From Streptosporangiaceae bacterium (GTDB lineage: Bacteria > Actinomycetota > Actinomycetes > Streptosporangiales > Streptosporangiaceae): DNA of 64,000 nt. Numbering within the stretch: position 1 is the first letter of the stretch; the number at the start of each line of letters is the position of its first letter. The position numbers and the translations under genes are program-made. Below, piece by piece: positions 3,089-47,175 of the stretch. The notes under the pieces were generated by a model that saw only the letters and a list, made by a program, of their open reading frames with translations, was not told the origin of the DNA and did no database searches. The stretch is taken from assembly GCA_025934375.1 (NCBI GenBank), contig JAICYD010000008.1, forward strand, positions 1 through 64,000, given 5' to 3'.

Positions 3089-3632
3089 CCGCCCTGCCTC
3101 CGGGCCCTGAGCCCCGGGCCCCGGCGGCGATGGCGCCCTCGCGTCCCCCGCCAGGGCGGCGATGGCACCCGTCGCGCCCCCTTTCCCAGGGCCGGCGATG
3201 GCGCCGGCGCGCGCCCGGTACTGGCCCGCCACTCGCCCGCCCGGCACCCTCCTGAGAGCGCCGGCGACTATCGAGGAGGATGGGTCCCCTTTCGGATTCG
3301 CAGGTCTTGCCCTGATTTGAGAAGTTAGCTGTGCAAGTTCAGTAGACGCAAGTGCACTTCCCAATCTTCACCCCGGCCGCGATACCCGCCTGTGAGGGAT
3401 TACCGAATAACGTCCGTAACCTGCGCACAGAGCATAGGTATAGACCTAGATGCATACCTAGCTTCAGTCATAATCTTGCGAGCCGCGCAATTGCATGATT
3501 AGGTTAGCGGCAAGTGCTTCACCCCGATCTCCTCTGATCAAGACGCCGCCTAGGCTTACCGGGCTTCCCCTCATCCGGTTTGCCTGGGGGGATCATCACG
3601 GTGCCGGTCAATGGGAAGCAGCTGAGGAAGAT
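3089..3632. promoter_or_regulatory. Intergenic region with a 7-bp inverted repeat (TAGGTAT / ATACCTA)
   Basis: No gene is seen. The stretch becomes AT-richer from about 3290 and holds TAGGTAT (3435-3441) and ATACCTA (3454-3460), perfect 7-bp arms 12 bases apart. This lies 170-200 bases before the HATPase gene and is a plausible operator. The first part (3110-3240) is GC-rich with repeated GGCGATGGCGCC-like words. Confidence 0.5.
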
Positions 3633-4187
3633 ATGTCGCACGCCATAGACGCGGCCCGGGCCCGCCGGGGAGCCAGGATCATTTCGCGTCCGCCATTGCC
3701 GGCCACCGGCGATGGCGGCACCGTGACCACGGTGTCGCTGGACGTCCACAAACCTGAATGCCTTGCCCGCCGCACGGTGATCACGGTGCTGGACCGCCTG
3801 GGCGTCTGCGCCGAGCGGCGCGACGAGGTTGAGCTAGCGGTCGCCGAGCTTGTCGCCAACGCCGGACTGCACGCTCCCGGTCCCCGGGAACTGCGCGTCT
3901 GCGTTGGCGGGGACGCCGTGACGCTCGCCGTGGCCGATGGCGGCGGCGATTACGCCGTGATCGCGCGAATCCTCGCCGATCCCGGTGCCGGGGTGCCGTG
4001 GTACGAGGAGCACGGCCGGGGGCTGCGGATCGTCGCGGCCTTGTTTCCCGGCGCATGTGGTGCCGCGCCTGTCGCTGCCGTCCGCGGGGGCGGCGGCAGC
4101 GACAGGCCGGCCAAGGAAGTGTGGGTCACGCTGCCCCTAGGGGGCCACGGCGATGGCCTGGATCAACCGGGCCCGTCCGGGCGATAG
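3633..4187 (+). CDS. ATP-binding anti-sigma-type protein (HATPase, RsbW-like)
   Basis: A 184-residue GHKL ATPase-domain protein of the kind that acts as an anti-sigma factor kinase. The N box reads ELAVAELVANAGLHA, the G1 box VADGGG and the G2 box EEHGRGLRIVAALF. I chose ATG 3633 because GAGGAAG lies just upstream; an earlier in-frame start at 3495 would add residues unlike the family. It differs from the other three HATPases in the window (11505, 31303, 46400), which share a LELGAY entry motif. No sigma factor or antagonist is adjacent, so its partner is unknown. Confidence 0.82.
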   Translation: MSHAIDAARARRGARIISRPPLPATGDGGTVTTVSLDVHKPECLARRTVITVLDRLGVCAERRDEVELAVAELVANAGLHAPGPRELRVCVGGDAVTLAVADGGGDYAVIARILADPGAGVPWYEEHGRGLRIVAALFPGACGAAPVAAVRGGGGSDRPAKEVWVTLPLGGHGDGLDQPGPSGR

Positions 4188-4256
4188 GGCAGCGGTCAGG
4201 TTCACGGCCTTGCCCGCGAAGTCGGCCATGAAGTCAGGCGGCCGAGCGGCTCCCGG

Positions 4257-4943
4257 TCATTGACTGGTCCCTGGCGCGGTGGACGGCATGGGCTGGCTGG
4301 GCGTGAGCCGGCGAAGGGCGTCCTCGTCGCCCTCGGCGCGCAGGCCCTTGTCGCGGGCCTCCCCCAGGGACAGCAGGCCGGACAGGTACCCGCCGATCAG
4401 CCGGGCCTCGCCGGACAGCCTCGCGTCGGCTGCGGCCGGGCGGCCGCGGCGGACCTCGAATCCGCCGTCGCCGCCGCCCGCGCCGTCATCATGGCTGACG
4501 AGGTGGACCGGCGCCTCGGGGGTCTCGATGGCGATGGTGAGCGGGCCGCGCTCGGGGTGGGCGTCACGCAGGCGCGCCGCGGCGATCATGCCCAGCCAGC
4601 TCCCGTGGACCACGTCCCCCTCCCGGTCGAGGTACATCGTCGGCAGGCCCCACTCGGTCAGCGCCTCGATCACCGGCCGCAGCTGACGCCCGCGCTCGGT
4701 GAGCTGGTACAGGCCGGTGGCGACCGGCGGCGGGGCGTCGACCCGGGTGAGCAGCCCGCTTTCCGCCATCTCGGCCAGGCGGGCCGCCAGCAGGTTGGTG
4801 GCGATGCCCGGCAAGCCAGCGCGCAGGTCGGTGAACCGCGACGGGCCCTGCATGAGCAGTTCCCGTACGATCAGCAGCACCCAGCGATCGCCCACCAGGT
4901 CAAGGGCCCGCGCCGCCGCGCAGTACTGGCCGTAGGTCTTCAT
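4257..4943 (-). CDS. HxlR-family winged-helix transcriptional regulator
   Basis: A 228-residue regulator whose first 110 residues are a typical HxlR domain: YGQYCAAARALDLVGDRW, then LLIVRELLMQGPSRFTDL, then an asparagine-rich recognition region and LTERGRQLRPVIEALTEWG. The C-terminal half is an extra ligand-type domain. Two starts are credible. ATG 4943 has GGGAG upstream and gives the family-length N-terminus. ATG 5027 overlaps the MFS stop codon as ATGA and also has GGAGGG. Lying directly after the MFS exporter in the same direction, it probably controls that exporter in response to a small molecule. Confidence 0.88.
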   Translation of the reverse strand: MKTYGQYCAAARALDLVGDRWVLLIVRELLMQGPSRFTDLRAGLPGIATNLLAARLAEMAESGLLTRVDAPPPVATGLYQLTERGRQLRPVIEALTEWGLPTMYLDREGDVVHGSWLGMIAAARLRDAHPERGPLTIAIETPEAPVHLVSHDDGAGGGDGGFEVRRGRPAAADARLSGEARLIGGYLSGLLSLGEARDKGLRAEGDEDALRRLTPSQPMPSTAPGTSQ

Positions 4944-5023
4944 CCGCGCCGCTCCCGGTTCATGCGTCCCGTCGCCGTCGGTAGCGCCCCGCCCGCCCGG
5001 ATCGCCGCGTCCTGCGTGCCCGG

Positions 5024-6598
5024 TCATGCGTGCGCTTCCCTCCTGGCTTCTACCGCACCGATTTCTACCGCACCAGCCGCCACGCCCGGCGGCTGCTCGG
5101 GCTGGGACGGCAGGAACAAGGCCACCAGGATGGCCCCGGCCGCCGCCACTCCCCCGGCGACGAGCGCGCCGATGCTCAGGCCGCGCAGGAACGCGTTGGT
5201 CGACGCGAGCTGCAGGGCCTGCCCGAGGCCGGGATTGCCGTGCGCCGCGATCGTGCCCGCGGCGGCGTAGGCTGCGCCGACGCCCTGGTGCGCGATCGCC
5301 GCGACCTGCCCCGGAACGCCGTGCGGCATCGCGGCCGTCAGCCGGGACCCGTACACCGACGCGTAGACGCTGCCCATGACGGCGACGCCGAGCGTGCCGC
5401 CGACCAGCCTGGTCGAGTCGTTGACCGCCGACCCGACGCCGGCCCGGGACCGCGAGACCGCGCCCATGATCGACTCGGTGGCCGGCGCCGAGGTCAGGCC
5501 CATGCCGAGGCCGAACACCACCATCTGCACCGCGATGATCGGGTAGCTGAGCGTCGCGCTGGTGATCGCCGCCGCCCCCGCGTAGAACCCCGCCATCGCG
5601 ATCAGGCCAATGCCGACGATGAGCTTGGTGCCCGCCCGCACGGCCAGCTGCGTTCCGGCGACCGACCCGAGGCCGACCGACAGCGCCACCGGCAGCAGCC
5701 GCACGCCGGTGCTCAGCGGCGCGTACCCGCGCACGAACTGGAAGTACTGAGTGATCAGGAAGATGAAGCCGAACAGCGTGAAGAACGAGATGGTGACCGC
5801 GGCGCTGGCCACGCTGAACCGCGGGTTGCGGAAGAGCCGCACGTCGAGCATCGGGTGGGCGGCCGCTCGCTCGCGGGCGATGAAGGCGGCCAGCAGGATC
5901 GCCGCCCCGGCGAAGCCGGCAACGCTGCGCGCGGCGGTCCATCCGTGGGTGGGCGCCTCGATGATGGTGAACACCAGCAGTGCCATGGTCGCCGCCGACA
6001 GGATGAGGCCGGGAATGTCCGGGGCCTGCGCGCCCGGGTCCTTCGACGCCGGCAGGACCAGCGCCGCCAGGATCGCGGCGGCCGCCGCGATCGGCGCCAT
6101 GACGATGAAGATGCTCACCCAGGTGAAGTGCTCCAGCAGCCAGCCGCCGGCGATCGGGCCCATGGCGATCGCCGCCCCGCCGACCGCGCCCCACAAGCCG
6201 ATCGCACGCGCCCGCTCCCCGCGCTCGGTGAAGACGTTGGAGATGAGCGACAGCGTGGCCGGGAAGGTCATCGCGGCGCCCAGGCCCATCACCGCGCGGG
6301 CCGCGATGAGCTCCGCCGCCGTGCTCGTGAACCCGCCGGCCAGGGACGCGGCCCCCACGACGGCCAGCCCCGCCAGCAGCATGCCCTTGCGGCCGAACCG
6401 GTCCGACAGGGCGCCGAACGTCAGCAGCAGCGCGGCGAAGACCAGGTTGTAGGCATCGACGACCCACTGGAGCTGGGTGGTGGTGGCGTGCAGCTCGCGC
6501 ACCAGGGCGGGCAGCGCCACGTTGACCAGGGTCGTATCGAGGTTGACGAGGAACGCCGCGAACAGCAGCGCGCCGAGGATAAGTGGCTTGGATCTCAT
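5024..6598 (-). CDS. MFS drug exporter, DHA2 (14-TMS) family
   Basis: A 524-residue multidrug-type transporter of the EmrB/QacA group. Many hydrophobic helices are visible. The loop LSDRFGRKGMLL is the MFS motif A, and VDAYNLVFAALLL and the motif around LGAAMTFPATLSLISNVF are typical of DHA2 proteins. ATG 6598 is preferred; the TTG at 6613 lies inside the operator-like palindrome. The stop overlaps an ATG of the downstream HxlR gene frame, so the two are probably co-transcribed and perhaps coupled. Substrate is unknown; proton-driven efflux across the cytoplasmic membrane is inferred from family. Confidence 0.9.
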   Translation of the reverse strand: MRSKPLILGALLFAAFLVNLDTTLVNVALPALVRELHATTTQLQWVVDAYNLVFAALLLTFGALSDRFGRKGMLLAGLAVVGAASLAGGFTSTAAELIAARAVMGLGAAMTFPATLSLISNVFTERGERARAIGLWGAVGGAAIAMGPIAGGWLLEHFTWVSIFIVMAPIAAAAAILAALVLPASKDPGAQAPDIPGLILSAATMALLVFTIIEAPTHGWTAARSVAGFAGAAILLAAFIARERAAAHPMLDVRLFRNPRFSVASAAVTISFFTLFGFIFLITQYFQFVRGYAPLSTGVRLLPVALSVGLGSVAGTQLAVRAGTKLIVGIGLIAMAGFYAGAAAITSATLSYPIIAVQMVVFGLGMGLTSAPATESIMGAVSRSRAGVGSAVNDSTRLVGGTLGVAVMGSVYASVYGSRLTAAMPHGVPGQVAAIAHQGVGAAYAAAGTIAAHGNPGLGQALQLASTNAFLRGLSIGALVAGGVAAAGAILVALFLPSQPEQPPGVAAGAVEIGAVEARREAHA

Positions 6599-6638
6599 AG
6601 TTGAGATTCTCAAGTATCTACTTTAAAAAGTCAACTAT
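6597..6638. promoter_or_regulatory. Operator cluster upstream of the MFS-HxlR operon
   Basis: Several dyads overlap in 42 AT-rich bases. ATAGTTGAG-ATT-CTCAAGTAT (6597-6617) has 9-bp arms with one mismatch. AAGTA-TC-TACTT (6612-6623) and ACTTT-AA-AAAGT (6620-6631) are perfect. The arm ATAGTTGA recurs inverted as TCAACTAT (6631-6638). On the minus strand TTGACT could serve as a -35 box. AAGTANNTACTT-type sites suit HxlR proteins; binding is inferred. Confidence 0.6.
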
Positions 6639-6704
6639 CCAGCCCGGGGCCCGGCTCGCCCGCCCGATACCCGGCGGGCGGCGGGGTACCGCGACGAGGT
6701 GACG

Positions 6705-8297
6705 TCAGCCGGAGCGCCCGGGCAGCACGGCCGCCGCTATCAGGCCGGCGAACGCCAGGGCGGCCGCGACGACAAGGCCGGCCCGGAAGCCATTGCTGAA
6801 CGCCTGCGGCGACGTGATGGCTCCGGCCGCGGCGAACGCGGCGCCGCCGATGGCCACGCCGAACGCGCCGCCCAGCTGGCGCATCGTGGCGAAGGCACCG
6901 GAGGCCTTGCCCACGTCGGCCAGCGGCGTGGTGGCCGTCGCCGACCTGGTCAGCGACGGGATCGCGATCGCCAGGCCCACGCCGGACGTGGCGATGGGCG
7001 CGACCAGCGCGCCGTAGCCGACGCCCGGCGTCACCACCTCGGCCAGCCAGGCCACCGCGGCCGCCTGGACCGCCAGCCCGGCCACGGACAGGGACCGCGT
7101 GCCGATCCGGTCGGCGAGCGCGCCGGCCGGCGATGCCAGCAGGAACGGCGCTATGCCCCACGGCAGGAGCCGCAGGCCCGCGCCCAGCGGGTCCTGGCCG
7201 CTGACGACCTGTAGGAACTGGGGCATGAGGAACACCACGACGGTCAGTGACCCGTTCAGCGCGAAGATCGCGACGTTGCCCGCCGCCAGGGCACGCGACC
7301 GCAGCAGCCGGGGCGGCAGCATCGGTGCCGCGGCGCGGCGCTCCCAGGCTCCGAACGCGACGGCCGCCACCGCCCCGGTGGCGAGCGCGCCGATGGTCTG
7401 CGCGCTCCCCCAGCCCGCCTCGTTGCCGCGGATCAGGCCCCAGGCCAGGCCCAGGGCGGCCACAACGGCCAGCAGCACCCCGGGCATGTCAATCGTGGCG
7501 CCCGGCCGGGGCGGCTCCGCCAGCCGGGTGAGCACCAGCGGCACCGCGGCCAGCGCGACCGGCACGTTCACCCAGAACACCCACTGCCAGCCCAGCCCCT
7601 GGGTGACCGCGCCGCCGAGGACCGGGCCGAGCACCACCGCCACGCTGGTGATGCTGCCGTACATTCCGATCGCCCGGCCGCGCCGGTGCGGCGGGAACGC
7701 CATGTTCAGCAAGGCCAGCGCCATCGGCATGATGGCCGCCGCGCCGGCCCCCTGCACGGCCCGGGCGGCGATCAGCACTCCCACGCTGGGCGCCAGCGCG
7801 CACGCGGCGGACGCCACCGCGAACAGCGCCAGCCCGGCCGCGAAGACGCGCCGCCGGCCGAGCATGTCGCCCAGCGCCGCGCCGGTCAGCAGCAGCACCG
7901 CGAAGCTCAGCGTGTAGGCGTTGACCGTCCACTCCAGGCCGCCCAGGGAGGCGCCGAGATCGCGCCCGATCGAGGTCAGCGCCGTCGCCACCACCAGGGA
8001 GTCCAAGACCACCAGGAACGACGCCGCCGACGACAGGGCCAGCGCCCACCGCTGCGCGGACAGCCGCGCCCCCGCGCCCCCGCCCGCCCCGGCCGCCGGC
8101 CCCGCCAGCCCTGTGGCCGGCGGCGCTGTTGTCGGCGGCATTGTTGCCGGCGGCGCTGTGGCCGGCGGCATTGTTGCCGGCGGCGCTGTTGCCGGCGGCG
8201 CTGTTGCCGGCGGCGCTGTTGCCCGCTGCTCGCTCACCGCCGTGTCCGGTTCCGCTTTCCCTGCCACGTCTGCCTCCACGCTCCTCATCGTTGCCAT
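6705..8297 (-). CDS. MFS drug exporter, DHA2 (14-TMS) family, with repeat-coded N-terminal linker
   Basis: A 530-residue transporter related in kind to its neighbour at 5024 but not its close copy. Landmarks are FLVVLDSLVVATALTSIGRD in the first helix, LGDMLGRRRVFAAGL (motif A) and GAGAAAIMPMALALLNMAF (motif C region). Before the first helix lies a cytosolic tail of about 60 residues made of ATAPP/ATMPP pentapeptides, coded by a 15-bp minisatellite. That tail is unusual for the family and probably disordered. ATG 8297 is a best guess; ATG 8288 or an upstream ATG at 8432 is possible. Its substrate cannot be told. Confidence 0.87.
   Translation of the reverse strand: MATMRSVEADVAGKAEPDTAVSEQRATAPPATAPPATAPPATMPPATAPPATMPPTTAPPATGLAGPAAGAGGGAGARLSAQRWALALSSAASFLVVLDSLVVATALTSIGRDLGASLGGLEWTVNAYTLSFAVLLLTGAALGDMLGRRRVFAAGLALFAVASAACALAPSVGVLIAARAVQGAGAAAIMPMALALLNMAFPPHRRGRAIGMYGSITSVAVVLGPVLGGAVTQGLGWQWVFWVNVPVALAAVPLVLTRLAEPPRPGATIDMPGVLLAVVAALGLAWGLIRGNEAGWGSAQTIGALATGAVAAVAFGAWERRAAAPMLPPRLLRSRALAAGNVAIFALNGSLTVVVFLMPQFLQVVSGQDPLGAGLRLLPWGIAPFLLASPAGALADRIGTRSLSVAGLAVQAAAVAWLAEVVTPGVGYGALVAPIATSGVGLAIAIPSLTRSATATTPLADVGKASGAFATMRQLGGAFGVAIGGAAFAAAGAITSPQAFSNGFRAGLVVAAALAFAGLIAAAVLPGRSG
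8111..8230. repeat. 15-bp minisatellite inside the MFS gene
   Basis: Eight successive 15-bp units of the type CTGTTGCCGGCGGCG, with small variations, encode a proline-alanine-threonine pentapeptide repeat in the MFS N-terminal tail. The unit length is a multiple of three, so copy changes keep the frame. Confidence 0.93.
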
Positions 8298-10233: not shown

Positions 10234-10479
10234 TTAGGCACGGATCCCGGCGAGCAGGGCGCGCCAGGCGGTGGCGGGGATGGTCAGCACCGCGCCCGCG
10301 CGGGCGGTGGTGTCCCGCACCTGGACACCGGCCCTGGCATCGCCGACCTCGACGCACGCCGCGCCGCCGTTGCCGCTGCAGCTGGACGTGCGCCACGCGC
10401 CGACCTCGACGCACTGCGCGCCGCCGTTGGGACTATAGCTGGACTTGCGCCAGCCGGGGCTTACTGCTGCTGGCTCCAC
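10234..10479 (-). CDS. DUF397 protein with duplicated signature (module 1)
   Basis: An 81-residue protein of the DUF397 family, which accompanies XRE/DUF5753 regulators in actinomycetes. The family signature WRKSSYSPNGGAQCVEV is followed at once by a second copy, WRTSSCSGNGGAACVEV. The usual VRDTTA...LTIPATAWRALL tail comes next. The GTG start at 10479 lies inside the last codons of the XRE gene, a 19-base overlap, so translation is probably coupled. The DUF397 gene of the second module (44947) has the same double signature and the same 19-base overlap. In WhiJ/AbaA-type loci such proteins act with the XRE partner; the biochemical role is not established. Confidence 0.9.
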   Translation of the reverse strand: MEPAAVSPGWRKSSYSPNGGAQCVEVGAWRTSSCSGNGGAACVEVGDARAGVQVRDTTARAGAVLTIPATAWRALLAGIRA

Positions 10480-11303
10480 TGCTGGATCGCCTCCGTGATG
10501 AGGGCCCGCGTCTCCTCGATGCTGAGGGCGTGGCCTTGGATCTGCCGGAACAACCGGGTGGCCTTGCGGACCACCTTCTTGTCGTCCACGGTCTGGTCCT
10601 CCACCGCCACCATCACCACAGTATCGGTGATCTCCTCGCCGCTGGCGATCTCAAATGGCCCCTCCAGCCCCCAGAAGTACCCCTCGTCCTGGATGACCTG
10701 GATGCTCACGTTCGCCCGCTCGGACATCTGGAGCAGGTGATTGAGCTGCCTAGTCATTACCTCGGGGGTGCCGACCCGGCGACGTAGGACCGACTCGTGC
10801 AGGAGCAGCGTCACGTGCGGTGCGTCCGGGCCGTTCAGGATCGTTTGCCGATCTTGACGGGCGTTGGCCTTTGCGGCGGCCTCGTCCTCACCGAATCCGG
10901 CGCGGGTGTTCATGGCATGCGCGTACTCGTAGACCTGGAACAGCCCGGACACGATCACGGGGCACCACAGCAGCAGGTACTCCGCTTCCCGTTCCCGTTC
11001 CAGGTACTTCTGGAAGAACTGCGGCACAGGTCCGCGCACGGCGCGGGCGAGCACCAGCATTCCCAGGTACACCTTGCGCTCGCGCTCGGTGGCGTTGCAC
11101 TTGGCCATGATCGCGTCGAACACGTCCTGGGTCGGGGGCTGGTACCCCGATTCGGCCTTGGCGATGACATCCCGGCTGACATGGATCGCAACGGCCAGTG
11201 CGTCCTGCGTGGCATATCCCGCCTCCGCGCGGAGTTCCGCCAGCAGCTCGCCGAGCTTCGCGGCGGGGTCCTGCTCGGGGTTACGGCTCTTTGGGCGCGG
11301 CAT
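10461..11303 (-). CDS. XRE-family regulator with DUF5753 domain (module 1)
   Basis: A 280-residue regulator. The N-terminal helix-turn-helix spans about residues 17-75 (LGELLAELRAEAGYATQDAL, SRDVIAKAESGYQPP). The rest is the DUF5753 ligand-type domain: IVSGLFQVYEYAHAM, LLHESVLRRRVGTPEVMTRQL, the NVSIQVI strand and a C-terminal helix. ATG 11303 begins the family-length MPRPKSRNPEQDPAA start; the longer open frame upstream is not coding. It is exactly the length of the module 2 regulator. It is divergent from an HATPase gene and overlaps DUF397, an arrangement like Streptomyces whiJ/abaA-type developmental loci. Confidence 0.92.
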   Translation of the reverse strand: MPRPKSRNPEQDPAAKLGELLAELRAEAGYATQDALAVAIHVSRDVIAKAESGYQPPTQDVFDAIMAKCNATERERKVYLGMLVLARAVRGPVPQFFQKYLEREREAEYLLLWCPVIVSGLFQVYEYAHAMNTRAGFGEDEAAAKANARQDRQTILNGPDAPHVTLLLHESVLRRRVGTPEVMTRQLNHLLQMSERANVSIQVIQDEGYFWGLEGPFEIASGEEITDTVVMVAVEDQTVDDKKVVRKATRLFRQIQGHALSIEETRALITEAIQQWSQQQ

Positions 11304-11372
11304 GAGCGGGGCCTCCGTGAGGTAGGGAAACGTTAGTGCGGGATGTGCGTACGGATAGCGTAAGCCGCTGTT

Positions 11373-11387
11373 TGCGTGGCACGGTGG
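11373..11387 (+). promoter_or_regulatory. Module-shared promoter motif (copy 1)
   Basis: TGCGTGGCACGGTGG lies between the divergent XRE and HATPase genes of module 1. The matching site in module 2 (46335-46349) differs at one base, and a GCGT lies at the same distance upstream in both. A shared operator or promoter element is inferred. Confidence 0.5.
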
Positions 11388-11504
11388 ATTTCCTGAGATA
11401 ACACGCCGGATTTCATGAACGGGAACCGCCGCCAGGGGCGCGGGCCATTCCGTGATTCCGGCATGCCCATCATCTGGCCGCGACGGAGCCGCACTGTGAA
11501 TGGC

Positions 11505-12026
11505 ATGAATTCCCGCACGCTGACACCGCCTGTCATCCCTCCTCATCCACTCGTGTCCAATGGGAACTGGCTGAGCGGGTTTCCGCTTCGATCTTTCCTG
11601 GAGCTGGGCGCGTACCGGAACGCGCCGGGCAGCGCGCGTGGTCATGCACGGAACGTGCTGGCGGAATGGGGGCTGGGGCAGTTCACCGACGCGGTGACCA
11701 TGGTGGTTTCGGAGATGATCACCAACTCGGTGAACGCGACGGAAAAGGTGACCTGGGACGCGGGCGTACCGCCCGTTCGGCTGTGGATGCTCGGCGGGCC
11801 GGGCGCCGGCGGGGCCGGGGAGGTGCTGCTGGTGGTGTGGGACGCCGTCGCCGTGGTGCCGGAGATGGGCGCGGCGGGCGCGGACGACGAGTCGGGCCGG
11901 GGGCTGGGGATCGTGCACTGGCTCAGCGGGCGGCAGTGGGACTGCTACCTCCCGCCCGCCCCGCCCGCCGGCAAGGTCACCCGGGTGCTGATCGATCACC
12001 CCTGGCGCGATCAGCCGCCCGGCTAA
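11505..12026 (+). CDS. ATP-binding anti-sigma-type protein, HATPase (module 1)
   Basis: About 173 residues with a GHKL ATPase fold. The entry motif is FLELGAYRNAPGSARGHARNVL. The N box is MVVSEMITNSVNAT, the G1 region VVWDAVAVVP and the G2 box ESGRGLGIVHWLS. The ATG at 11505 is a compromise; in-frame ATGs at 11415 and 11463 exist, and none has a strong ribosome site. It is divergent from the XRE regulator and 141 bases before the CxCG mini-protein. Anti-sigma-like activity is a family inference. Homologous proteins at 31303 and 46400 share the entry motif. Confidence 0.85.
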   Translation: MNSRTLTPPVIPPHPLVSNGNWLSGFPLRSFLELGAYRNAPGSARGHARNVLAEWGLGQFTDAVTMVVSEMITNSVNATEKVTWDAGVPPVRLWMLGGPGAGGAGEVLLVVWDAVAVVPEMGAAGADDESGRGLGIVHWLSGRQWDCYLPPAPPAGKVTRVLIDHPWRDQPPG

Positions 12027-12167
12027 GCCGGCGCGGCCGGGACGGCGGAGAAAACCGTGCCGTTCTCCTGATCTCCCGGCCGCGCCGCCCCTTTCCGCGA
12101 TTGCGTAGTCGCGGGCACTGCCCTGTCCTCGCTGACCATCATCAGCAACGGAAGAAAGGACGCCGGA

Positions 12168-12431
12168 ATGCCAGGCGCACAATGCTCGTGTGGCTTCACC
12201 GTCGTTAACGGAGATGACGAGACGATCGAGGATCACCTTCTCTCGGTGTTCACGCCGGAAGGCGATAAGGGCACCGACGGGCAGGCTCACCTGGAAGGGG
12301 AAGCAGAGCTGGCGTGCCTTTGCGGGCTCCGGGCGGGCACCGCCGGGGAACTGGACTCTCATTTCCTGGAGATGTTCATCCCGGCGGACCGGGTGGACTC
12401 CGGCGGCGTCGAGCACACGGTGATCGCGTAA
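12168..12431 (+). CDS. Double CxCG...H...H mini-protein (module 1)
   Basis: An 87-residue protein made of two copies of one pattern: Cys-x-Cys-Gly, then a His 13-15 residues on, then a second His exactly 18 residues later. Unit 1 uses C6, C8, H23, H41; unit 2 uses C50, C52, H65, H83. Around the first His the units read DHLLSVFTP and SHFLEMFIPAD. This spacing suggests two small zinc (CCHH) sites. GAAAGGA precedes ATG 12168. The homologue at 46873 carries the same two unit types in reverse order. I do not know a named family; a metal-binding partner of the upstream HATPase is an inference from the conserved gene order. Confidence 0.8.
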   Translation: MPGAQCSCGFTVVNGDDETIEDHLLSVFTPEGDKGTDGQAHLEGEAELACLCGLRAGTAGELDSHFLEMFIPADRVDSGGVEHTVIA

Positions 12432-31302: not shown

Positions 31303-31833
31303 GTGAACGGCGCGCTCCTCCCCATCCACGGAGACGGTGAAAAGCCCGTGGAACTCACGCAAGAGCAAGCATGGTCCCCTCCGCGGCGCAGCCCGGCGGC
31401 CTGGCCTCGGCGATCACACCTGGAGCTGGGCGCCTACCCTACAGCGCCAGGCAGTGCGCGTGGTCACGCCGGCAACGTGCTGCGCGAGTGGCGGCTGGGC
31501 CAGTTCGCGGAGGCCGCCGAAGTCGTGGTCTCCGAGCTGGTGACCAACTCCGTGCAGGCCACGCGGGCGGTCCGCTGGCCGACCAGGCAGCCGCCCGTGG
31601 GGCTGTGGCTGGTCAGTGACGGCTCCAGCGTCCTCGTGCGGGTGTGGGATGCCGTGACCAGCCCGCCCGAGCGCCGCCCGGCCGGGCTCGAGGACGAATG
31701 CGGCCGCGGCCTGGCCATCGTGACCGCCCTGTGCTCGGACTGGGGCCACCATTACCCGCCCCCGGATACCGGCGGGAAGATCACCTGGGCGCACATCACC
31801 AGCCCCTGGATGACCGAGGAAGCCTTCAGCTGA
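31303..31833 (+). CDS. ATP-binding anti-sigma-type protein (HATPase, orphan paralogue)
   Basis: A 176-residue GHKL protein. Its entry motif, SHLELGAYPTAPGSARGHAG, is shared with the module proteins at 11505 and 46400. The N box is VVVSELVTNSVQAT, the G1 region RVWDAVTSPP and the G2 box ECGRGLAIVTALC. GTG 31303 has GAGGAGGAA upstream, with a slightly long spacer. Unlike its two paralogues it has no XRE, DUF397 or CxCG partner beside it. A consensus-like promoter with inverted-repeat operators lies 135 bases upstream. The partner sigma or regulator is unknown. Confidence 0.85.
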   Translation: MNGALLPIHGDGEKPVELTQEQAWSPPRRSPAAWPRRSHLELGAYPTAPGSARGHAGNVLREWRLGQFAEAAEVVVSELVTNSVQATRAVRWPTRQPPVGLWLVSDGSSVLVRVWDAVTSPPERRPAGLEDECGRGLAIVTALCSDWGHHYPPPDTGGKITWAHITSPWMTEEAFS

Positions 31834-34057: not shown

Positions 34058-34192
34058 CGCCGGCTCGCCACCCGGGAAGCCGGGTCGGCGCCCGTCGGCG
34101 CCAGCCCGCACCTCCCCACCAGGCCCGCCCGGCACGCCCGCCAGCATGGTTACACATTGTTATTTTCCATATTGGTAACTATCCTTGCCTTC

Positions 34193-34787
34193 ATGGAAAG
34201 GAACGAGGCTTGGCTCCTTCCGCTGCTGCGGTCACGGGTCACGGGTCACGGGGGCACTGCTGGCCCTCCTCTACCTTCACCCCGACCGTGACTACAGCCT
34301 GGCCGAGGCGGGAAAGCTGATCGACGCCAGCCCGAAGGTCATGTCCACCGAGGCTGATCGACTGGTGACCGCCGGGCTGGTCCGCGAGACCAGGCGGGGC
34401 ACCTTGCGCTTGCTGCGGGCGGAAACCAGCGGCCCGGTTAGCCGTCCGCTGACGGACCTCCTCGCGGTCACCTATGGCCCGATGCCCGTCCTCGCCGATC
34501 TGCTGTCCGCCGTCCCTGGGGTGGAGGAGGCATATATCTACGGCTCTTGGGCGGCCCGGTACCTTGGCGAGCCCGGCCCTGTTCCGCACGACGTGGATGT
34601 CCTCGTTATCGGCGCCGCAGACGAAGACGACCTTTACGACAAAGCGCGCGAAGCAGAGAACCGGTTGGGACGGGAGGTCAACATTAGCGCCGTAAACCGG
34701 CAATACTGGGAAACCCCGGATCCGGCCGATTCCTTCATGCGCCACGTCCGGGAACGCCCCCTCGTCAAGCTGGAGCTGTCAACGTGA
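34193..34787 (+). pseudogene. MNT nucleotidyltransferase with wHTH domain, frameshifted by a 7-bp repeat
   Basis: The frame from ATG 34193 starts MERNEAWLLPLLRSRVTG and the matching continuation (ALLALLYLHPDRDYSLAEAG) lies in another frame. The break falls in three tandem copies of TCACGGG; with two copies the frames join perfectly. After the wHTH part (SPKVMSTEADRLVTAGLVRE) comes a nucleotidyltransferase core, VEEAYIYGSWAARYLGE (GSW in place of GSx) and HDVDVLVIG (the DxD). Such proteins are antitoxins of MNT/HEPN systems, or regulators. The 3' end overlaps the HEPN start as GTGA. Either decayed, phase-variable, or rescued by an internal start. Confidence 0.75.
34232..34252 (+). repeat. 7-bp tandem repeat (TCACGGG)3
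   Basis: Three exact copies near the 5' end of the MNT gene. Because seven is not a multiple of three, each gain or loss of a unit changes the frame; two copies would restore it. Confidence 0.93.
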
Positions 34788-35060
34788 GATGGAACCAGGG
34801 CCGCGTAGTGATCGAGAAGCTGATCGCCGACGGGGAACTGCAGCGAGTCCCGGCAAGTCGCGAGCACGCCGATCAACTCCTCGTCCAGGCGCGAAAGGAC
34901 CTCGACAGTGCCCAGGTGCTAGCCGACGCCAACCCCAGGCGAGCGTATGAGAGCCTGTACGACGCGGCGCGAATGGCCCTGACTGCCGTCCTGGAAAACG
35001 AGGGACTACGCCCTACCATTCGCGGTGGCCACCTCGCGTCGTTTTCCGCAGTCACCGCTT
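34784..35060 (+). pseudogene. HEPN-domain protein, truncated at the restriction-modification island
   Basis: The GTG start overlaps the MNT stop. The first 90 residues match the HEPN family that follows wHTH-MNT proteins: HADQLLVQARKDLDSAQVLA, PRRAYESLYDAARMALTAVL and LRPTIRGGHLASFSAVTA. The homology then ends. The frame runs on into the antisense of the hsdR 3' end. The expected second half with the R-x4-6-H RNase motif is absent. In intact pairs the HEPN protein is the toxin; this one should be inactive. The break point lies about 45 bases beyond the hsdR stop. Confidence 0.75.
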
Positions 35061-35103
35061 TCCGTTCTAATCATGGTGGCGCCGACCTGAGCACTGCCCG
35101 GGG

Positions 35104-38100
35104 TTACGCCTGTGGTGACCATTCGTCGGCGAAGGTTTCCATCTGGTCGAGGACGAGCTTGATGGCCGCGGCCTGGGCGTCGGGGGGATATCCCCATTTA
35201 GCAAGCAGGCGCTTGATGGTGGAGCGGATCTTGGCCCGCACGTCGTCGCGGGACGCCCAGTCGGTGGTGACGTCGCGGCGCAGCGTGCGGACCAGGTCGC
35301 GGGCAATGTCGGCAAGAATGCTTTCGCCCATCTCGGTGACCGCGGACTCGTTTTGCCGGACCGCGTCATAGAAGGCCAGCTCGTCGTTGTTCAGCGGCGG
35401 CGAGAACTGCTCGCCGCGCCGCGCGTCTGCCGCTACGTCCTTGGCCAGGGCGACGAGCGCGGCGATGATCTCGGCGGCGCTCAGGTGCTGGTTGGTGTAC
35501 TGGCGCATCAACTCCGCGAGCCGGTCAGAGAAGCTGGTCTGGGCCACGATGTTATGCCTCGTCACCTTGCGCATTTCGCTTTCGACGAGGCGGCGCAGCG
35601 CCTCGATCGCCAGGTGGGGATGGCGCTGCGCGCGCATCCGCTCGATGAACGCCTCGTCCAGGTGCGACAGGTCCTGGTTTCCGATCCCGGCGGCGGCGTA
35701 AATGTCGGTGACGCCGCCCGCCTCGATGGCGCTGGCGGCCAGCGACTTCAGGTAAAGCTCGACGTCCGGCGAGACCGTCTCGCCGCGGGCGCGGCGATCC
35801 TCGGCGTCGCGCCGCGCCATCATGACGCGGATCTCCTCGAAGAACCTGACGTCACCGCGGAACCCGGCCATGTCCACGTGGGTGGAGCAGATCGCGTACA
35901 TGCGCGCCAGCCGGGCCGACGCTTGCCGGAACCTATCCCCCAGCGTCAGCGCGTCCTCGCCTACCTGGTTGCCCGGCGTGGCCGGCGATCGCAGGAACTC
36001 CACCGCGCCCAGCAGGGCGTCCAGGTACGCTTTCGGCCCCGGCAGTGCCCGCGCCGAACGCCAGTCGTAGCCGTCAAGGATTACGTCGCCGATGACCGCG
36101 AGCAGGTTCTTCGCCTCATCGACAGCCCATTCGGCCTTCTGGCCGACCGGCATGCGGGCCTGGTCGGTGGCGGTGTACTCGGCGAGCGCCGCGTACAGGT
36201 TGCCCTCCAGCGGCGCGTACCCGACCAGCAGCCCGCCTTCCTTGTCGCGGAACGTCCGGTTGACCCGCGCCAGGGCCTGCATCAGCGCCGCCCCGCGCAT
36301 CGGCTTGTCCACGTACATCGTGTGCAGCGGCGGAGAGTCAAACCCGGTCAGCCACATCGACTGGACGATCACCAGCTCAAGCTCATCGTCGGGATCCTTC
36401 GCGCGCTGCTGGATCACCCGAGTCTGGGCCGGGCGCCGGACGTGCCTGCGGATGTGCGGTTCATCGCCCGGCCCGCCCGTGTAGACGACCTTGATCTTCC
36501 CGGTCCGGTCGTCGTCTGTGCACCAGTCCGGCTTTAGGTCGATAAATCGCGCATACAGGGCGGCGCAGATCTCGCGGGTGGCGCACACGATCATGCCCTT
36601 GCCGGGCACCCCGATGAACTTGGCCATCTGCGCCGAGCGCTGCTCCCAGTGCTTGACGACGTCCGTCGAGAGCTGCCGGATCCGGTCCGGGGCACCGTAC
36701 AGGCTGTTCATCGCCAGCACCGCCTGCTTGATGCGCTCACGTTCGGAGTCGTCCAGCCCCACGGTCGCCTCGTCGGCCCGGTCGTCGATCTCCTCCGGGT
36801 CGATGCCCGCGGGCAGGTCGAGTTGGATGAGCCGGCTTTCGTAGAAGACCGGGACGGTCGCGCCGTCGTCGACCGCCCGGGTCAGGTCGTAGATCGAGAT
36901 GTAGTCGCCGAAGACCTGGCGGGTGTCCCGCTCGCCGAGCGAGATCGGCGTGCCGGTGAACGCGATGAGCGTGGCGTGGGGGAGCGCGTCCCGCAGGTGC
37001 CGGGCGTATCCGTCGAGGTTGTCATAGTGACTGCGGTGGGCTTCATCGACGATGACCACGATGTTGCGCCGGTCCGACAGCAGCGGGTGGTCCGCGCCAC
37101 GCTCCCGCTCTTCCTTGGTGCGGCCGAACTTTTGCAGCGTGGTGAAGACGATCCCGCCGGTCCGCTTGTTCGCCAGCACCGTGCGCAGCTCATCGCGGGT
37201 GGCGATCTGCGAAGGCTTCTCTGGCAGCAGCTCGCTGGCCCAGAACGTGCCGAACAGCTGGTCGTCCAGGTCGGTCCGGTCGGTGATCACCACGATGGTG
37301 GGGTTGCCGAGCGACGGGTGGGTGAGTACCTGGTTGGCGTACAGCTCCATCTCCATCGACTTGCCGGACCCCTGGGTGTGCCACACCACGCCGGCCCGCC
37401 CGTCGCCGCGCACCGCGATGATGGTCTTGCGGATCGCCTCGGCCACCGCGAAATACTGGTGCGGCTTGGCCAGCAGCTTCGCCAGCCCGTCCTCGGTGCG
37501 GGCGAAGGTCACGTATCCGGTCAGCAGGTCAAGGAACCGGTACAGCTCGAAAAGCCCGTTGAGCAGCAGGACGAGCGGCTGGTCCTCCGACCGCGTCGAC
37601 GGCTGCTTGACCGGCTCGCCGTACTCATCCACCGTCCACGGCGCGAAGTGCTCGAACGGGGTGAAGGCGGTGCCATGCAGCGCCCCCGGCCCGTCGGTCA
37701 CCACGCACACGACGTTGCACCGGAACGCCAGCGGCAGTTCCTCGACGTACGTCATCAGCTGGGCGTGCGCGGTCTTCAGGTCGTCGCCCTTGGCGCTGGT
37801 CTTCTTCAGCTCGATGATCGCCAGCGGCATCCCGTTGACGTACAGGACGACGTCGAAACGCCGCCGGTGCTCCCCGTCCACCACCAGCACCTGGTTGGCG
37901 GCCAGGTAGTCGTTGTTGCCAGGATCCCGCTTATCGATGAGCCAGATCGTCGGGTTGTGCTCCGCCCCGAAATGGTCGGTGTAGACGACGCTCCGGATGC
38001 CACGCGTCAGGAACTCATGGACCCGGTGATTCTCAGCCCGCGCGTCGCGGGATGTCACCGACAAGACAGCCTTCGCCGCCTGGTCGACCGCATCCGTCGG

Positions 38101-38283
38101 CAGGCCGGGATTGATCCGGGCGATCGCGTCGGCTAGCCGCCCCGGAATGATCAGCTCACTCCAGGATTCCCGCTCCCCCGACCCCGGCCCGATTGCCTTG
38201 CCGGTCCGAAACTCCCAGCCAAGCTCTCCCAGCTCATTCAAGACCAGCTCTTCCCAGCCAGCCTCCGCCATCCCCAAGGGCAT
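35104..38283 (-). CDS. hsdR: Type I restriction endonuclease, R subunit (HsdR)
   Basis: About 1,059 residues. The N-terminal nuclease domain includes RRRFDVVLYVNGMPLAIIEL followed by KK, the D...ExK site. The SF2 motor has Walker A WHTQGSGKSMEMELYA, the DEAH box IVDEAHRSHYDNL, GTPISLGERDT (motif III), and late helicase motifs around ALARVNRTFRDKEGGLLVGY. The C-terminus is helical and should bind the methylase core. ATG 38283 overlaps the hsdS stop. It is the last gene of the operon. The enzyme translocates DNA and cuts unmodified sites at a distance. Confidence 0.96.
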   Translation of the reverse strand: MPLGMAEAGWEELVLNELGELGWEFRTGKAIGPGSGERESWSELIIPGRLADAIARINPGLPTDAVDQAAKAVLSVTSRDARAENHRVHEFLTRGIRSVVYTDHFGAEHNPTIWLIDKRDPGNNDYLAANQVLVVDGEHRRRFDVVLYVNGMPLAIIELKKTSAKGDDLKTAHAQLMTYVEELPLAFRCNVVCVVTDGPGALHGTAFTPFEHFAPWTVDEYGEPVKQPSTRSEDQPLVLLLNGLFELYRFLDLLTGYVTFARTEDGLAKLLAKPHQYFAVAEAIRKTIIAVRGDGRAGVVWHTQGSGKSMEMELYANQVLTHPSLGNPTIVVITDRTDLDDQLFGTFWASELLPEKPSQIATRDELRTVLANKRTGGIVFTTLQKFGRTKEERERGADHPLLSDRRNIVVIVDEAHRSHYDNLDGYARHLRDALPHATLIAFTGTPISLGERDTRQVFGDYISIYDLTRAVDDGATVPVFYESRLIQLDLPAGIDPEEIDDRADEATVGLDDSERERIKQAVLAMNSLYGAPDRIRQLSTDVVKHWEQRSAQMAKFIGVPGKGMIVCATREICAALYARFIDLKPDWCTDDDRTGKIKVVYTGGPGDEPHIRRHVRRPAQTRVIQQRAKDPDDELELVIVQSMWLTGFDSPPLHTMYVDKPMRGAALMQALARVNRTFRDKEGGLLVGYAPLEGNLYAALAEYTATDQARMPVGQKAEWAVDEAKNLLAVIGDVILDGYDWRSARALPGPKAYLDALLGAVEFLRSPATPGNQVGEDALTLGDRFRQASARLARMYAICSTHVDMAGFRGDVRFFEEIRVMMARRDAEDRRARGETVSPDVELYLKSLAASAIEAGGVTDIYAAAGIGNQDLSHLDEAFIERMRAQRHPHLAIEALRRLVESEMRKVTRHNIVAQTSFSDRLAELMRQYTNQHLSAAEIIAALVALAKDVAADARRGEQFSPPLNNDELAFYDAVRQNESAVTEMGESILADIARDLVRTLRRDVTTDWASRDDVRAKIRSTIKRLLAKWGYPPDAQAAAIKLVLDQMETFADEWSPQA

Positions 38284-39431
38284 CACGTTACATCCCCAAC
38301 GACTTTCTCCGCCTCCCGCACCCGAATCTCCCCCGACATGAGCCTAGGAAGGAGCGAGTCGCGCAGCTTCGCGAGAGCGTCGGACTCCCCTAGCGCTGAA
38401 TCACCGAGGTTTTCAAGTGCAGTAAGCACCGGTCGGAGTCGCTTGGCGCTGTCTCTCGATGGCAGAGTAATTCGCAGCCCCGAGAGCTGACCGCGGCTGA
38501 GTTCTGTTTGCCCTGTGCTGCCTTCGCCAAGAGCCTCGATTTCGGGTTCCGCGCTGAGCATGGCGAATCCTGCACAGACGGGATCGATTCTGGTCTCATC
38601 GAATCGGACGATAGTCACATGCGAGTCGACAGTACAGGCATCGTCCCGGGTCCAGCGCGCGACACGCCCTAGGGTTCCCATGCCAGTCGAATTAACCAGT
38701 ACGTCATTTGGCTTAAGCAGCTTCGCCGGCACAACCTTACCCCCGAGGGTCCACCGGGACGGGCCAAGGCTGACTCGACCATCACGAATACATTTCTGAT
38801 TCAGCACTCGAAGCTGAGACTGATCTTCAGTGTAGTTGGGCGCAATGCCGCGATTGAACAACTCCACAACTGATGAGAGTACAAATTCACTCGCACCACC
38901 CGAGTTGATGACCTCGCGAAAGTGCGCCCAAGCCAAACTCCGGGCAGTCTTCGCAATCTGATTCTTGACGGCGATCTTGTCGTCGAATGCCCCTAGAACT
39001 TCAACAATCGAATCCTGACACTTTCGACTTGGCAGCCGAACCGCAATACGATTCATTGCAGCTTGAGTGAGCTTCGGCTGAGTTGAACCGGAGAGATAGC
39101 CGGATATATCTATTCCTACCAGCGCGTATGCCAGATAGCGCACATTAGCCAAATGATTACCCTGAACCACGTGGGCATGATTATTGACCCAGAATTTTCC
39201 AGAAGCCATGAAAGCCACTGGCGTCTTCCGGGTCCGCAGATTCTCTCCATCCTCGGCTATCAGGAGATAATCACCATCGAATATATAAGCATCGACGCGA
39301 TCCACTATTCCCGATGCGCCATAGTACGGATATGATCCAGGCTTACGCTCGCTAGATCGGATCGGCACTCTGAGCGAGTCAAAGTTGACGATCACATCGC
39401 CTAGAAGAAAAGTCTTGAAATCATACATCAT
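38283..39431 (-). CDS. hsdS: Type I restriction specificity subunit (HsdS)
   Basis: A 382-residue protein with two target-recognition domains. TRD1 (residues 1-140) has [20 protein letters not shown], then [10 protein letters not shown] and a conserved-helix end ([20 protein letters not shown]). TRD2 (about 190-340) ends with the second helix ([16 protein letters not shown]). TRD1 DNA, about 38,850-39,430, is strikingly AT-rich compared with the rest of the window, a sign of separate origin. ATG 39431 lies inside the hsdM 3' end, an 11-base overlap. It sets the recognition sequence for both methylation and cleavage. Confidence 0.95.
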
Positions 39432-41031: not shown

Positions 41032-41045
41032 CAGGTTCCTATCCG

Positions 41046-43145: not shown

Positions 43146-43172
43146 GCCCCTACAGTAATTTTCTGGTTGGTT

Positions 43173-43207
43173 GAATCAAGCGATTCACTGATAACCAGGG
43201 TTATCAG
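43173..43207. promoter_or_regulatory. Paired inverted repeats in the restriction operon control region
   Basis: CTGATAACC-AG-GGTTATCAG (43188-43207) has perfect 9-bp arms. GAATC-AAGC-GATTC (43173-43186) lies next to it. Both sit between the restriction operon (start 43145, minus) and the TIGR04141 gene (start 43252, plus), so one protein could control both. Confidence 0.72.
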
Positions 43208-43251
43208 CAACTCGATGCCACTCAGTCGATTTCAGCTCCTAGCGTGATGAC

Positions 43252-44913: not shown

Positions 44914-44946
44914 CGGGACAGCGCCGTCGGTGCACCGGAACTGATA

Positions 44947-45198
44947 TCAGCGGAGGGTCGCCACGAACGCGCGCCACGTCTCCGGGGAAACACGCAGGAC
45001 CGGACCCGCGCCGCGCTCCTTGGTGTCGCGGATGAGGATCGCGCCTCCGGCGTGAGCTGCCTCTACGCAGTTGCCACCACCGTTGCCGGTGTAGCTCGAC
45101 GTCCGCCAGGGGATACTGCCGACCTCCACGCAGTTGCCACCACCGTTAGCGGTGTAGCTAGACGTGCGCCAGCTGGGGGTCACTGCTCGCGCTTCCAT
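44947..45198 (-). CDS. DUF397 protein with duplicated signature (module 2)
   Basis: An 83-residue DUF397 protein. As in module 1 the signature occurs twice: WRTSSYTANGGGNCVEV, then WRTSSYTGNGGGNCVEA. The tail is ILIRDTKERGAGPVLRVSPE. The two signature copies are nearly identical, also at the DNA level (45054-45166), a recent internal duplication. ATG 45198 overlaps the XRE gene by 19 bases, exactly as in module 1. A functional partner of the XRE regulator is inferred from this repeated arrangement. Confidence 0.9.
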   Translation of the reverse strand: MEARAVTPSWRTSSYTANGGGNCVEVGSIPWRTSSYTGNGGGNCVEAAHAGGAILIRDTKERGAGPVLRVSPETWRAFVATLR

Positions 45199-46022
45199 CG
45201 GTCGATCGCCTCCACTATCGCCGCCCGCGACTCTTCTACATTGAGCGCATGGCCGCGAACCTGCTCGAATACCGCAGCCATCGTGCGGACTAGCTCGCGG
45301 CTGTCCGTGATCTGGTCTGCCACCGCATCTATGCGTATCATATCGGGAACCTCCGGACCCCTGGCGATGTCGAACGCCCCGTTTAGACCAGCCACAGCGC
45401 CCGGACCACGGACTATCTGGAGCGTGATGCGTCGCCGTCGGGATATCGCCGTCAGATGCTCTAGTTGCCTGACCATGATCTCAGCGGTGCCCATGAGTCG
45501 GTGCAGCACCGACTCTTCGATAAGAACCGTGAGGTGCACGGGGTCGTCGCCGTCAATGATGGCCTGACGGTCCAGGCGAGCGGCGACCTTCTCGTCGGCC
45601 TCGTCCTCGTCGACGCCAGCCAGCAGGTACATGGCGCGAATGTACTCCTCGATCTGCAGCAGGCCCGGGATAACCAGCGGGCACCAGATACGGATCGAGT
45701 CCGCCTTCCTCTCCACGTCGATCCACCAGGTGAACCACCCGGGGACGGCACCCCTGGCGTTCCGGGCAAGGATGAGCTGCCGCTCCAGCATCGCCCGTTC
45801 GGTGCCCGCGATACCGCAGGCATCCATCCACGCGTTGAACACCACATCGGTTGGCGGGCGGTCGCCCGACTCGGCCTTGCTGATGACCGTTCGCTCGTAG
45901 CCGAGGACGACGGCGAACGCCGCCTGGACTGGATGGCCAGCCTCGATTCGCACCCGGGCCAGTTCCATGCCGAGCAGGGCGGCGGGATCATTCTCGGGGC
46001 TTCGGCTGCTGTTTCTGGGCAT
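45180..46022 (-). CDS. XRE-family regulator with DUF5753 domain (module 2)
   Basis: A 280-residue protein, the same length as the module 1 regulator. The HTH spans about residues 15-75 (GMELARVRIEAGHPVQAAFA, VVLGYERTVISKAESGDRPP). The DUF5753 domain includes WCPLVIPGLLQIEEYIRAMY, VLIEESVLHRLMGTAEIMVR, QLEHL and RITLQIVRG. The final helix reads ALNVEESRAAIVEAIDRWK. Similarity to the paralogue is family-level, so the duplication is old. ATG 46022 is the natural start. The gene is divergent from an HATPase gene across a 377-base gap. Confidence 0.92.
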   Translation of the reverse strand: MPRNSSRSPENDPAALLGMELARVRIEAGHPVQAAFAVVLGYERTVISKAESGDRPPTDVVFNAWMDACGIAGTERAMLERQLILARNARGAVPGWFTWWIDVERKADSIRIWCPLVIPGLLQIEEYIRAMYLLAGVDEDEADEKVAARLDRQAIIDGDDPVHLTVLIEESVLHRLMGTAEIMVRQLEHLTAISRRRRITLQIVRGPGAVAGLNGAFDIARGPEVPDMIRIDAVADQITDSRELVRTMAAVFEQVRGHALNVEESRAAIVEAIDRWKREQ

Positions 46023-46399
46023 GCGGCAACCTCCCGCTCATAGTGGCGGCTCACGATGATTCTTGGCGCGATCAGGATAACCCGCGAGAAACGCGGATGC
46101 TAAACATTCGACGCGAAGGACAGGGACGTTAGAGGCAATGATCATGGGGTTGCCGGCCCTCACCCATGGTCGCCACATGGCCCGTGTCATCGAGTTGCGC
46201 GATCTATTAACGCCGCGATTTATCGGCCACACTCATAATGGCTGGCCGCGTACGGCTTCCGCGCGTTGTGGCACGGATCTCCGGCGTTGTGGCGGCTGGT
46301 GGCGGATGTGGTGACACCTGCGTTTCCCTGCTTCTGCGTGGCAGGGTGGGAAACCTACAGGGACATGCCGGCCGTTTCGCATTGAAGGGTGAAATTCTC
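46023..46399. promoter_or_regulatory. Divergent control region of module 2
   Basis: This 377-base gap separates the XRE and HATPase genes. An in-frame ORF extension from 46238 is probably not coding. It contains TGCGTGGCAGGGTGG (46335-46349), matching the module 1 gap at 11373-11387 with one mismatch, and a GCGT at 46320 spaced as in module 1. Confidence 0.55.
46335..46349 (+). promoter_or_regulatory. Module-shared promoter motif (copy 2)
   Basis: TGCGTGGCAGGGTGG, 51 bases before the HATPase start. Fourteen of fifteen bases match copy 1. Candidate site for the module's XRE regulator. Confidence 0.5.
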
Positions 46400-46858
46400 A
46401 TGGAAGCCACTCGTGCTCCAGTCGGGTCGCCATTTCATCGCAGCCCGGAAAGCTGGCCCCGGCGATCTCACCTGGAACTCGGCGCGTATCGCACCGCGGC
46501 GGGAAGCGCCCGCGGGCACGTCGCGAGCATGCTGCGCGAATGGGACCTGCGTGAGCTCGCGGAGGCCACCGAATACGTCGTATCAGAGCTGGTGGCCAAT
46601 TCCGTGCTGGCGACCGAGGCAATGCAATGGCTGATCCGCCCGCCGGTGCGGCTGTGGCTGCTCAGTGACGGCGCGGCCGTCCTCGTGCACGTCTGGGACG
46701 CGATCGCCGCCGTGCCGCAGCCGCGCGCCGCCGCCCCGGATGACGAGAACGGGCGGGGGCTGGCGATCGTGGCCGCACTGAGCGCGCAGTGGGGGCACGA
46801 CTGGTCGCCGCGCGGGCTGGGCGGGAAGGTCACCTGGGCGTTGATCACCACACCGTGA
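46400..46858 (+). CDS. ATP-binding anti-sigma-type protein, HATPase (module 2)
   Basis: A 152-residue GHKL protein. The entry motif is SHLELGAYRTAAGSARGHVA. The N box is YVVSELVANSVLAT, the G1 region HVWDAIAAVP and the G2 box ENGRGLAIVAALS. ATG 46400 gives the same N-terminal length class as its paralogues. The CxCG mini-protein starts 14 bases after its stop, so the two are surely co-transcribed. Anti-sigma-like function is a family inference; its target is unknown. Confidence 0.87.
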   Translation: MEATRAPVGSPFHRSPESWPRRSHLELGAYRTAAGSARGHVASMLREWDLRELAEATEYVVSELVANSVLATEAMQWLIRPPVRLWLLSDGAAVLVHVWDAIAAVPQPRAAAPDDENGRGLAIVAALSAQWGHDWSPRGLGGKVTWALITTP

Positions 46859-46872
46859 GGACGGAACCGCCA

Positions 46873-47175
46873 ATGAGCGAGCGCGCGTGCAGTTGCGGAT
46901 TCGCCGTGTCCAGCGGCGACGAGGTCACCGACCACTTGGGCGAGATGTTCATTCCGGCCGACGACATCGCCGCCGACGGCGTCCGGCACGCCGAAGATGG
47001 GCGCGAGGCTCCCGGCCGAGCCTGCTTGTGCGGGTTCACCAGCCCGGGCGCCGGGGCACTCGATGAGCACCTGCTCACCGTGTTCACGCCCACCGACGAG
47101 ACCGGCCGCGACGGCAGGCGGCATGCGGCATGCGGCGAGACCGGCGTGAGCTGCGAATCGCGCGGCCGGCGCTAA
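46873..47175 (+). CDS. Double CxCG...H...H mini-protein (module 2)
   Basis: A 100-residue homologue of the protein at 12168. Unit 1 uses C6, C8, H21, H39; unit 2 uses C51, C53, H66, H84. The His-to-His distance is 18 in every unit of both proteins. Unit 1 has DHLGEMFIPADDI, matching unit 2 of the first protein; unit 2 has EHLLTVFTPTDE, matching unit 1 of the first. The order of unit types is therefore swapped. A short Arg-rich tail with one more Cys follows. The stop overlaps the convergent LacI gene by four bases. Zinc binding is inferred from the ligand pattern. Confidence 0.82.
   Translation: MSERACSCGFAVSSGDEVTDHLGEMFIPADDIAADGVRHAEDGREAPGRACLCGFTSPGAGALDEHLLTVFTPTDETGRDGRRHAACGETGVSCESRGRR

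Follow-up and report, generated by a model that had tools for sequence, protein, structure and literature searches.

A two-unit Cys/His mini-protein encoded behind AbaA-like HATPases in whiJ/bldB/abaA-type loci of one Streptosporangiaceae genus

Loci of the whiJ/bldB/abaA type in a Streptosporangiaceae genome carry a fourth gene, encoding a predicted acidic mini-protein with two CxCG..H..H units, which lies immediately 3′ of an AbaA-like HATPase gene, often in apparent translational coupling with it, in ~16 modules per genome of two species. Only two genomes, both of one genus, are known to have this fourth gene, and its product constitutes, to judge from its sequence, a new protein family. 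Our preferred reading, to which we give a probability of roughly 0.6, is that a locus of this type gained the fourth gene in one Streptosporangiaceae lineage and that the encoded protein acts as an acidic, metal-stabilised partner modulating the HATPase under WhiJ/BldB-type control. The genomic association of mini-protein, HATPase and XRE regulator is strong; the biochemical role is what we infer.

Two modules, A and B, lie in the 64,000-nt stretch of DNA analysed here (the window). An earlier note had described the gene order DUF397, XRE/DUF5753, divergent HATPase and mini-protein as occurring twice, and we recovered both copies at the same positions, with strong Pfam matches for DUF5753 and DUF397. 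In module A, the minus strand encodes a small DUF397 (BldB-like) protein (10234..10479; PF04149, E=1.1e-24, two stretches) and a regulator with an XRE HTH and a DUF5753 domain (WhiJ-like; 10461..11303; PF19054, E=8e-41; HTH_31, E=1e-9), and the plus strand encodes the AbaA-like HATPase (11505..12026, with a likely start codon at 11505 in a frame open from 11415) and an 87-residue mini-protein (12168..12431). The divergent promoter region between them (11304..11504), by its position the presumed operator of the WhiJ-like regulator, contains a stretch, TAGCGTA..CCGC..AGATAACACGCCG, that recurs in related modules; k-mer counts over the divergent promoters gave motifs only among close modules and no operator common to all. 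Past the HATPase stop, folding predicted a strong GC hairpin (12027..12088, plus strand), nearly identical in the HATPase–mini-protein gaps of three related modules (L035, L085 and L088), which is possibly a terminator or attenuator. Module B comprises, on the minus strand, the DUF397 protein (44947..45198; PF04149, E=2e-27, two stretches) and the XRE/DUF5753 regulator (45180..46022; PF19054, E=1.2e-43), then the divergent promoter region, assigned by position (46023..46399), and, on the plus strand, the AbaA-like HATPase (46400..46858) and, 14 bases after it, a 100-residue mini-protein (46873..47175). Both XRE proteins have 280 residues, both XRE/DUF397 overlaps span 19 bases and both DUF397 proteins carry a doubled WR(K/T)SS..CVEV signature, all as the earlier note had it. 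Elsewhere in the window, a short tandem repeat at 8130-8250 codes for AALLP/AAGNS-like runs in overlapping frames.

By its sequence, the XRE-DUF397-HATPase core is a locus of the known whiJ/bldB/abaA kind, in line with the assignment made in the earlier note: XRE/DUF5753, DUF397, an AbaA-like HATPase and many paralogues were all found. The doubled DUF397 signature is common in the genus and also occurs without a mini-protein (locus L096 in G004), and is therefore not specific to mini-protein-bearing modules; one DUF397 protein, at 3254-3529 of L075, has three tandem WR.SSYS..CVEV signatures. The HATPases matched HATPase_c_2 just below the Pfam gathering score of 27.4 bits (module A, 18.5 bits, E=0.002; module B, 24.4 bits, E=3e-5), and the module B protein was also matched by a phage-derived family of the same type (PHROG 12354, E=6.5e-17). 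The two proteins are 55% identical over 135 residues, and most HATPases of the family have an N-box of the form SE..TN/AN and a GRGL box, module A having SE..TN and GRGL. A related LELGAY-type HATPase (31303..31833, plus strand) is not part of a module, with no DUF5753, DUF397 or mini-protein adjoining, as had been noticed before; it joins a 23-row clade of mini-protein-bearing HATPases, and its syntenic orthologue in the congener G003 is likewise without partners.

A search of the 7.4-Mb draft genome with the module B mini-protein returned ~26 relatives, 20 of them full length and about 6 fragments, and the congener G003 (MAG JAICUO01, Streptosporangiaceae bacterium isolate GZL_ISSM_2_bin.89) gave 21 matches, 18 of full length. 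Neighbour tables built with iterated profiles placed the four-gene module ~20 times in the window's own genome, A and B being two of these, alongside about 45 DUF397 and 56 DUF5753 loci, many paralogous copies per genome being characteristic of whiJ/bldB/abaA loci. Among the full-length copies of both genomes that lie away from contig ends, 32 of 36 directly follow an AbaA-like HATPase gene encoded on the same strand; the four that do not are L036, the orthologous pair L031/L090 and the mini-protein that opens the L022 array. The three copies without a HATPase (L031/L090 and L036) indicate that a mini-protein can be maintained on its own. Of the 30 modules whose divergent side is readable, 29 have a divergent XRE/DUF5753 gene, in most cases accompanied by DUF397 (exception L087). 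The earlier note had regarded the mini-protein as a fixed and undescribed fourth member, a view that these counts and the lack of any family-library match bear out, and had held that mini-proteins found mostly without HATPase or XRE neighbours would speak against it, which is the opposite of what we observed. Random placement would put a mini-protein beside a HATPase in ~0.15% of copies, at which rate a count of 16/18 has P of about 1e-43.

The link to the XRE regulator was also seen from the HATPase side. Of the HATPases in the own genome that were found independently of the mini-protein and are readable on both sides, 15 had mini-protein and XRE, none mini-protein without XRE, four XRE without mini-protein and nine neither, so that a mini-protein accompanies 15/19 HATPases with a divergent XRE versus 0/9 without (Fisher p=1e-4). 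Corrected for ancestry, this link comprises 5 to 7 independent contrasts, all in the same direction or showing no difference (sign test p 0.06-0.13 for most pairings). HATPase and mini-protein genes overlap by four bases (ATGA) in seven modules and are separated by 7-240 bases in the others, and mini-protein and HATPase distances correlate modestly over 16 modules (rho 0.34, permutation p 0.003). Shortened mini-proteins in L037, L039, L041, L042, L043 and L094, some beside intact XRE/DUF397 genes, mark decaying modules.

An alignment of 38 full-length mini-proteins, those of modules A and B included, has only nine invariant columns (C6, C8, H21, H39, E41, C51, C53, H66 and H84, module B numbering), namely the eight Cys/His residues of two CxC-x(11-14)-H-x(17)-H units and one Glu. 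Each unit follows the general form CxCG-x(n)-H-x(17)-H, with the consensus C.CGf.......ld.Hll..FtP.d..g.dG..H. Given the invariance of the Cys/His residues, each unit is probably a site for a single metal ion, zinc being the likeliest. The two units within one protein are ~39% identical, no more than unit 1 and unit 2 across proteins, suggesting that the tandem duplication is older than the expansion of the paralogues. All 38 copies are acidic (pI 4.1-5.1, median 4.5; net charge -5 to -14, median -10), properties more in keeping with binding to a protein than to a nucleic acid. In orthologue pairs between the two genomes, dN/dS was 0.27 for the mini-protein, 0.26 for the HATPase and 0.23 for the XRE protein; these ratios mark the mini-protein as a genuine protein that purifying selection constrains as strongly as it does HATPase and XRE. 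It had no accepted match in Pfam, NCBIfam, PHROGs or PADLOC, none in a profile search of the PDB, and no description in the literature searchable here. An AlphaFold model computed from 4 sequences (pLDDT 44) predicted, at low confidence, a β-hairpin and a helix.

We searched for the mini-protein with a profile built from 20 of its sequences. Two of 41 relatives had it when nearly all candidates were scored, as did 2 of 343 genomes from 68 genera of the family when the best 13-15 candidates per genome were scored; it was thus absent from 6 other congeners and 335 other genomes of the family. Samples of the class and the phylum outside the genus, scored in the same way, at a depth at which very distant relatives could be missed, yielded no mini-protein, and two weak matches (G401 and G873) proved to be chance, with no intact CxC..H..H unit on reading. 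A motif scan of 84,980 species recovered only JAICUO01, and PLSDB plasmids and viral contigs contained no mini-protein. The earlier note would have taken co-occurrence far above chance across actinomycete genomes as support for the module; the linkage is indeed far above chance, but it is confined to two genomes of one genus.

XRE-DUF397-HATPase triads without a mini-protein exist in congeners, and the mini-protein appears or disappears at least 9 times across a tree of 67 HATPases, for which a single mini-protein-bearing clade is rejected (p-AU 5e-60). On this tree, which does not separate gain from loss, many divergent HATPases of one lineage have either acquired the mini-protein or lost it. 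Repeated gain inside that lineage is the simpler account, because the mini-protein is absent from all other congeners. Twelve reciprocal-best mini-protein pairs connect the two genomes, which places much of the expansion before the two species separated. From 27.3 to 50.4 kb, a segment covering module B and the solitary HATPase, the window is collinear, in inverted orientation, with contig C705 of G003, which carries the syntenic orthologue of the module B mini-protein, so the pair of modules is not a recent local duplication. Local duplication as the only source of the arrangement, an option left by the earlier note, was rejected for A and B, whose mini-proteins are 44% identical and fall on separate branches, module B moreover having its orthologue in G003. 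Two stretches of the window, 34100-39430 and 40980-44940, are missing from the otherwise collinear contig; the latter adjoins module B and contains a 553-residue ORF (43252-44913).

The position 3′ of the HATPase is not reserved for the mini-protein. Some triads in the genus have nothing there, or a different small helical protein of 54-86 residues with the pattern LERLKLAADVILRL..LEAEL..FRDRIEHALL. In a search of 31 relatives, this helical family turned up in G000, G003 and G007, and G005 gave a weak match. Its members behind AbaA-like HATPases include L120 (G000 C23:5365-5547), L124 (C217:7928-8095), L129 (C4:43715-43888), L101, L106 and L107. At L022 (G000 C33, about 3600-6800), DUF397 and XRE genes diverge from a mini-HATPase-helical-mini array, showing that both small partners can share one module; the idea that helical and mini-proteins exclude each other was dropped on account of this locus. 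The slot 3′ of AbaA would thus seem to accommodate small partners specific to individual lineages.

Taking these observations together, we propose how such a module might operate. Family resemblance makes WhiJ/BldB-type control of the HATPase–mini-protein operon likely: by analogy with the WhiJ9/BldB control of the divergent gene iosA in S. venezuelae (PMC10294661), the divergent WhiJ-like XRE/DUF5753 protein would control the operon, and the BldB-like DUF397 protein would restrain the WhiJ-like regulator. Each mini-protein unit would hold one metal ion. Gene adjacency, translational coupling and correlated divergence point to the HATPase as the target, and the acidic mini-protein may bind its cognate HATPase and modulate it, conceivably by presenting or blocking the HATPase's own target, a sigma factor or another regulator; these last two steps are the least supported. 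The mini-protein would then serve as the antagonist missing from AbaA-type HATPases, and metal or thiol state might be an input. A more ambitious version, which we hold only tentatively and would not bet on, is that a young, lineage-restricted family of two-site metalloproteins was recruited beside many divergent AbaA-type HATPases as their obligate cognate partner, creating ~20 parallel WhiJ/BldB-controlled switches with metal or thiol input, and that the slot 3′ of AbaA is generally open to new small partners, the helical proteins being a second such family in the same genus.

The main competing explanation, doubtful in our view and still the one to be taken most seriously, is that the mini-protein is the effector of the locus and acts elsewhere in the cell, the HATPase merely sharing its operon. 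The unrelated IosA offers a precedent, in that it occupies the AbaA position in an S. venezuelae bldB/whiJ locus and blocks sporulation (PMC10294661), and the solitary mini-proteins, together with the unrelated helical proteins in the same slot, are in keeping with such a role; however, an effector independent of the HATPase would not readily explain why the mini-protein is almost never found without one or why the distances of the two proteins correlate. Paired Cys/His units and the low-confidence hairpin-and-helix model could alternatively make the mini-protein a zinc finger that binds DNA or RNA and serves the locus as a further transcription regulator, a possibility we consider improbable in view of the strong acidity of every copy, a CxC and H-x17-H spacing unlike that of C2H2 fingers and the lack of a Pfam or PDB match.

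A shade less probable again is a toxin-antitoxin or selfish cassette, in which the XRE protein would be the antitoxin and DUF397 or the mini-protein the toxin, the copies having multiplied through addiction and not through regulatory use. XRE-DUF397 has been predicted to be a type II pair (PMC2701414), and the copies are numerous, dispersed and in some cases decayed, but the Scr1/Scr2 pair was not toxic when tested (PMC6262351), plasmids and viral contigs lacked the mini-protein, and many modules are kept as orthologous pairs in two species. That all copies share one common ancestor and usually one position might finally be put down to passive hitch-hiking, the mini-protein having been copied with the HATPase by segmental duplication; purifying selection, strict conservation of the ligand residues and the repeated changes of mini-protein presence on the HATPase tree already disfavour this reading and leave it very improbable.

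Few regulatory gene sets of complex actinomycetes have been multiplied as much as the WhiJ/BldB/AbaA loci, and the mini-protein points to an unrecognised partner of such regulators, surprising both in its copy number and in its narrow distribution. About 30 natural HATPase–mini-protein pairs and a motif of eight Cys/His residues offer a handle for tests of interaction, metal binding and specificity, and the family is a well-resolved example of a taxon-restricted gene family in one fixed place of many copies of an old module.

In Streptomyces, clusters such as SCO4542-4544, S. venezuelae bldB2-11 and abaA orfA likewise combine an XRE protein, which in modules A and B has a C-terminal DUF5753, with an acidic DUF397 protein and an AbaA-type HATPase, in many dispersed paralogues. 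These loci have been put forward as brakes on development that include an antisigma-like member whose role is unknown (PMC4255298), and the biochemical role of the AbaA-type HATPase is unknown in the literature (PMC4255298, PMC10294661). Loss of BldB activates the divergent gene only in the presence of WhiJ9, which binds direct repeats in the divergent promoter, and BldB forms hetero-oligomers with its paralogues (PMC10294661). The iosA-whiJ9-bldB9 locus also has a small protein of unknown fold beside the controlling whiJ/bldB paralogues (PMC10294661), but IosA is described as basic (pI 10.3), has a mass of 15 kDa and replaces AbaA, whereas the mini-protein is acidic and Cys/His-rich and follows AbaA. 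A HATPase fold with an N-box, a GRGL-type ATP lid and a small protein encoded alongside is reminiscent of the partner-switching anti-sigma kinases SpoIIAB/RsbW, whose partner, however, is a STAS antagonist, whereas the mini-protein matches neither STAS nor any other family and is probably a metal-site protein without homologues. With ZAS-type zinc anti-sigma factors (RsrA-like) it would have in common only the notion of a small metal protein with Cys/His residues acting in sigma-factor control, the ZAS motif HxxxCxxC being missing from all 38 sequences, which have CxC..H..H in two tandem units, and no sequence relation being detected; nor does its spacing follow the Cx2-4C..Hx3-5H pattern of classical C2H2 zinc fingers. 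Streptomyces whiJ/bldB/abaA loci are described as having two or three genes, whereas in the present modules the HATPase is followed by a two-unit CxC/H/H protein: the core of the locus is of an already known kind, and the fourth member, a new protein family, makes a new variant of it.
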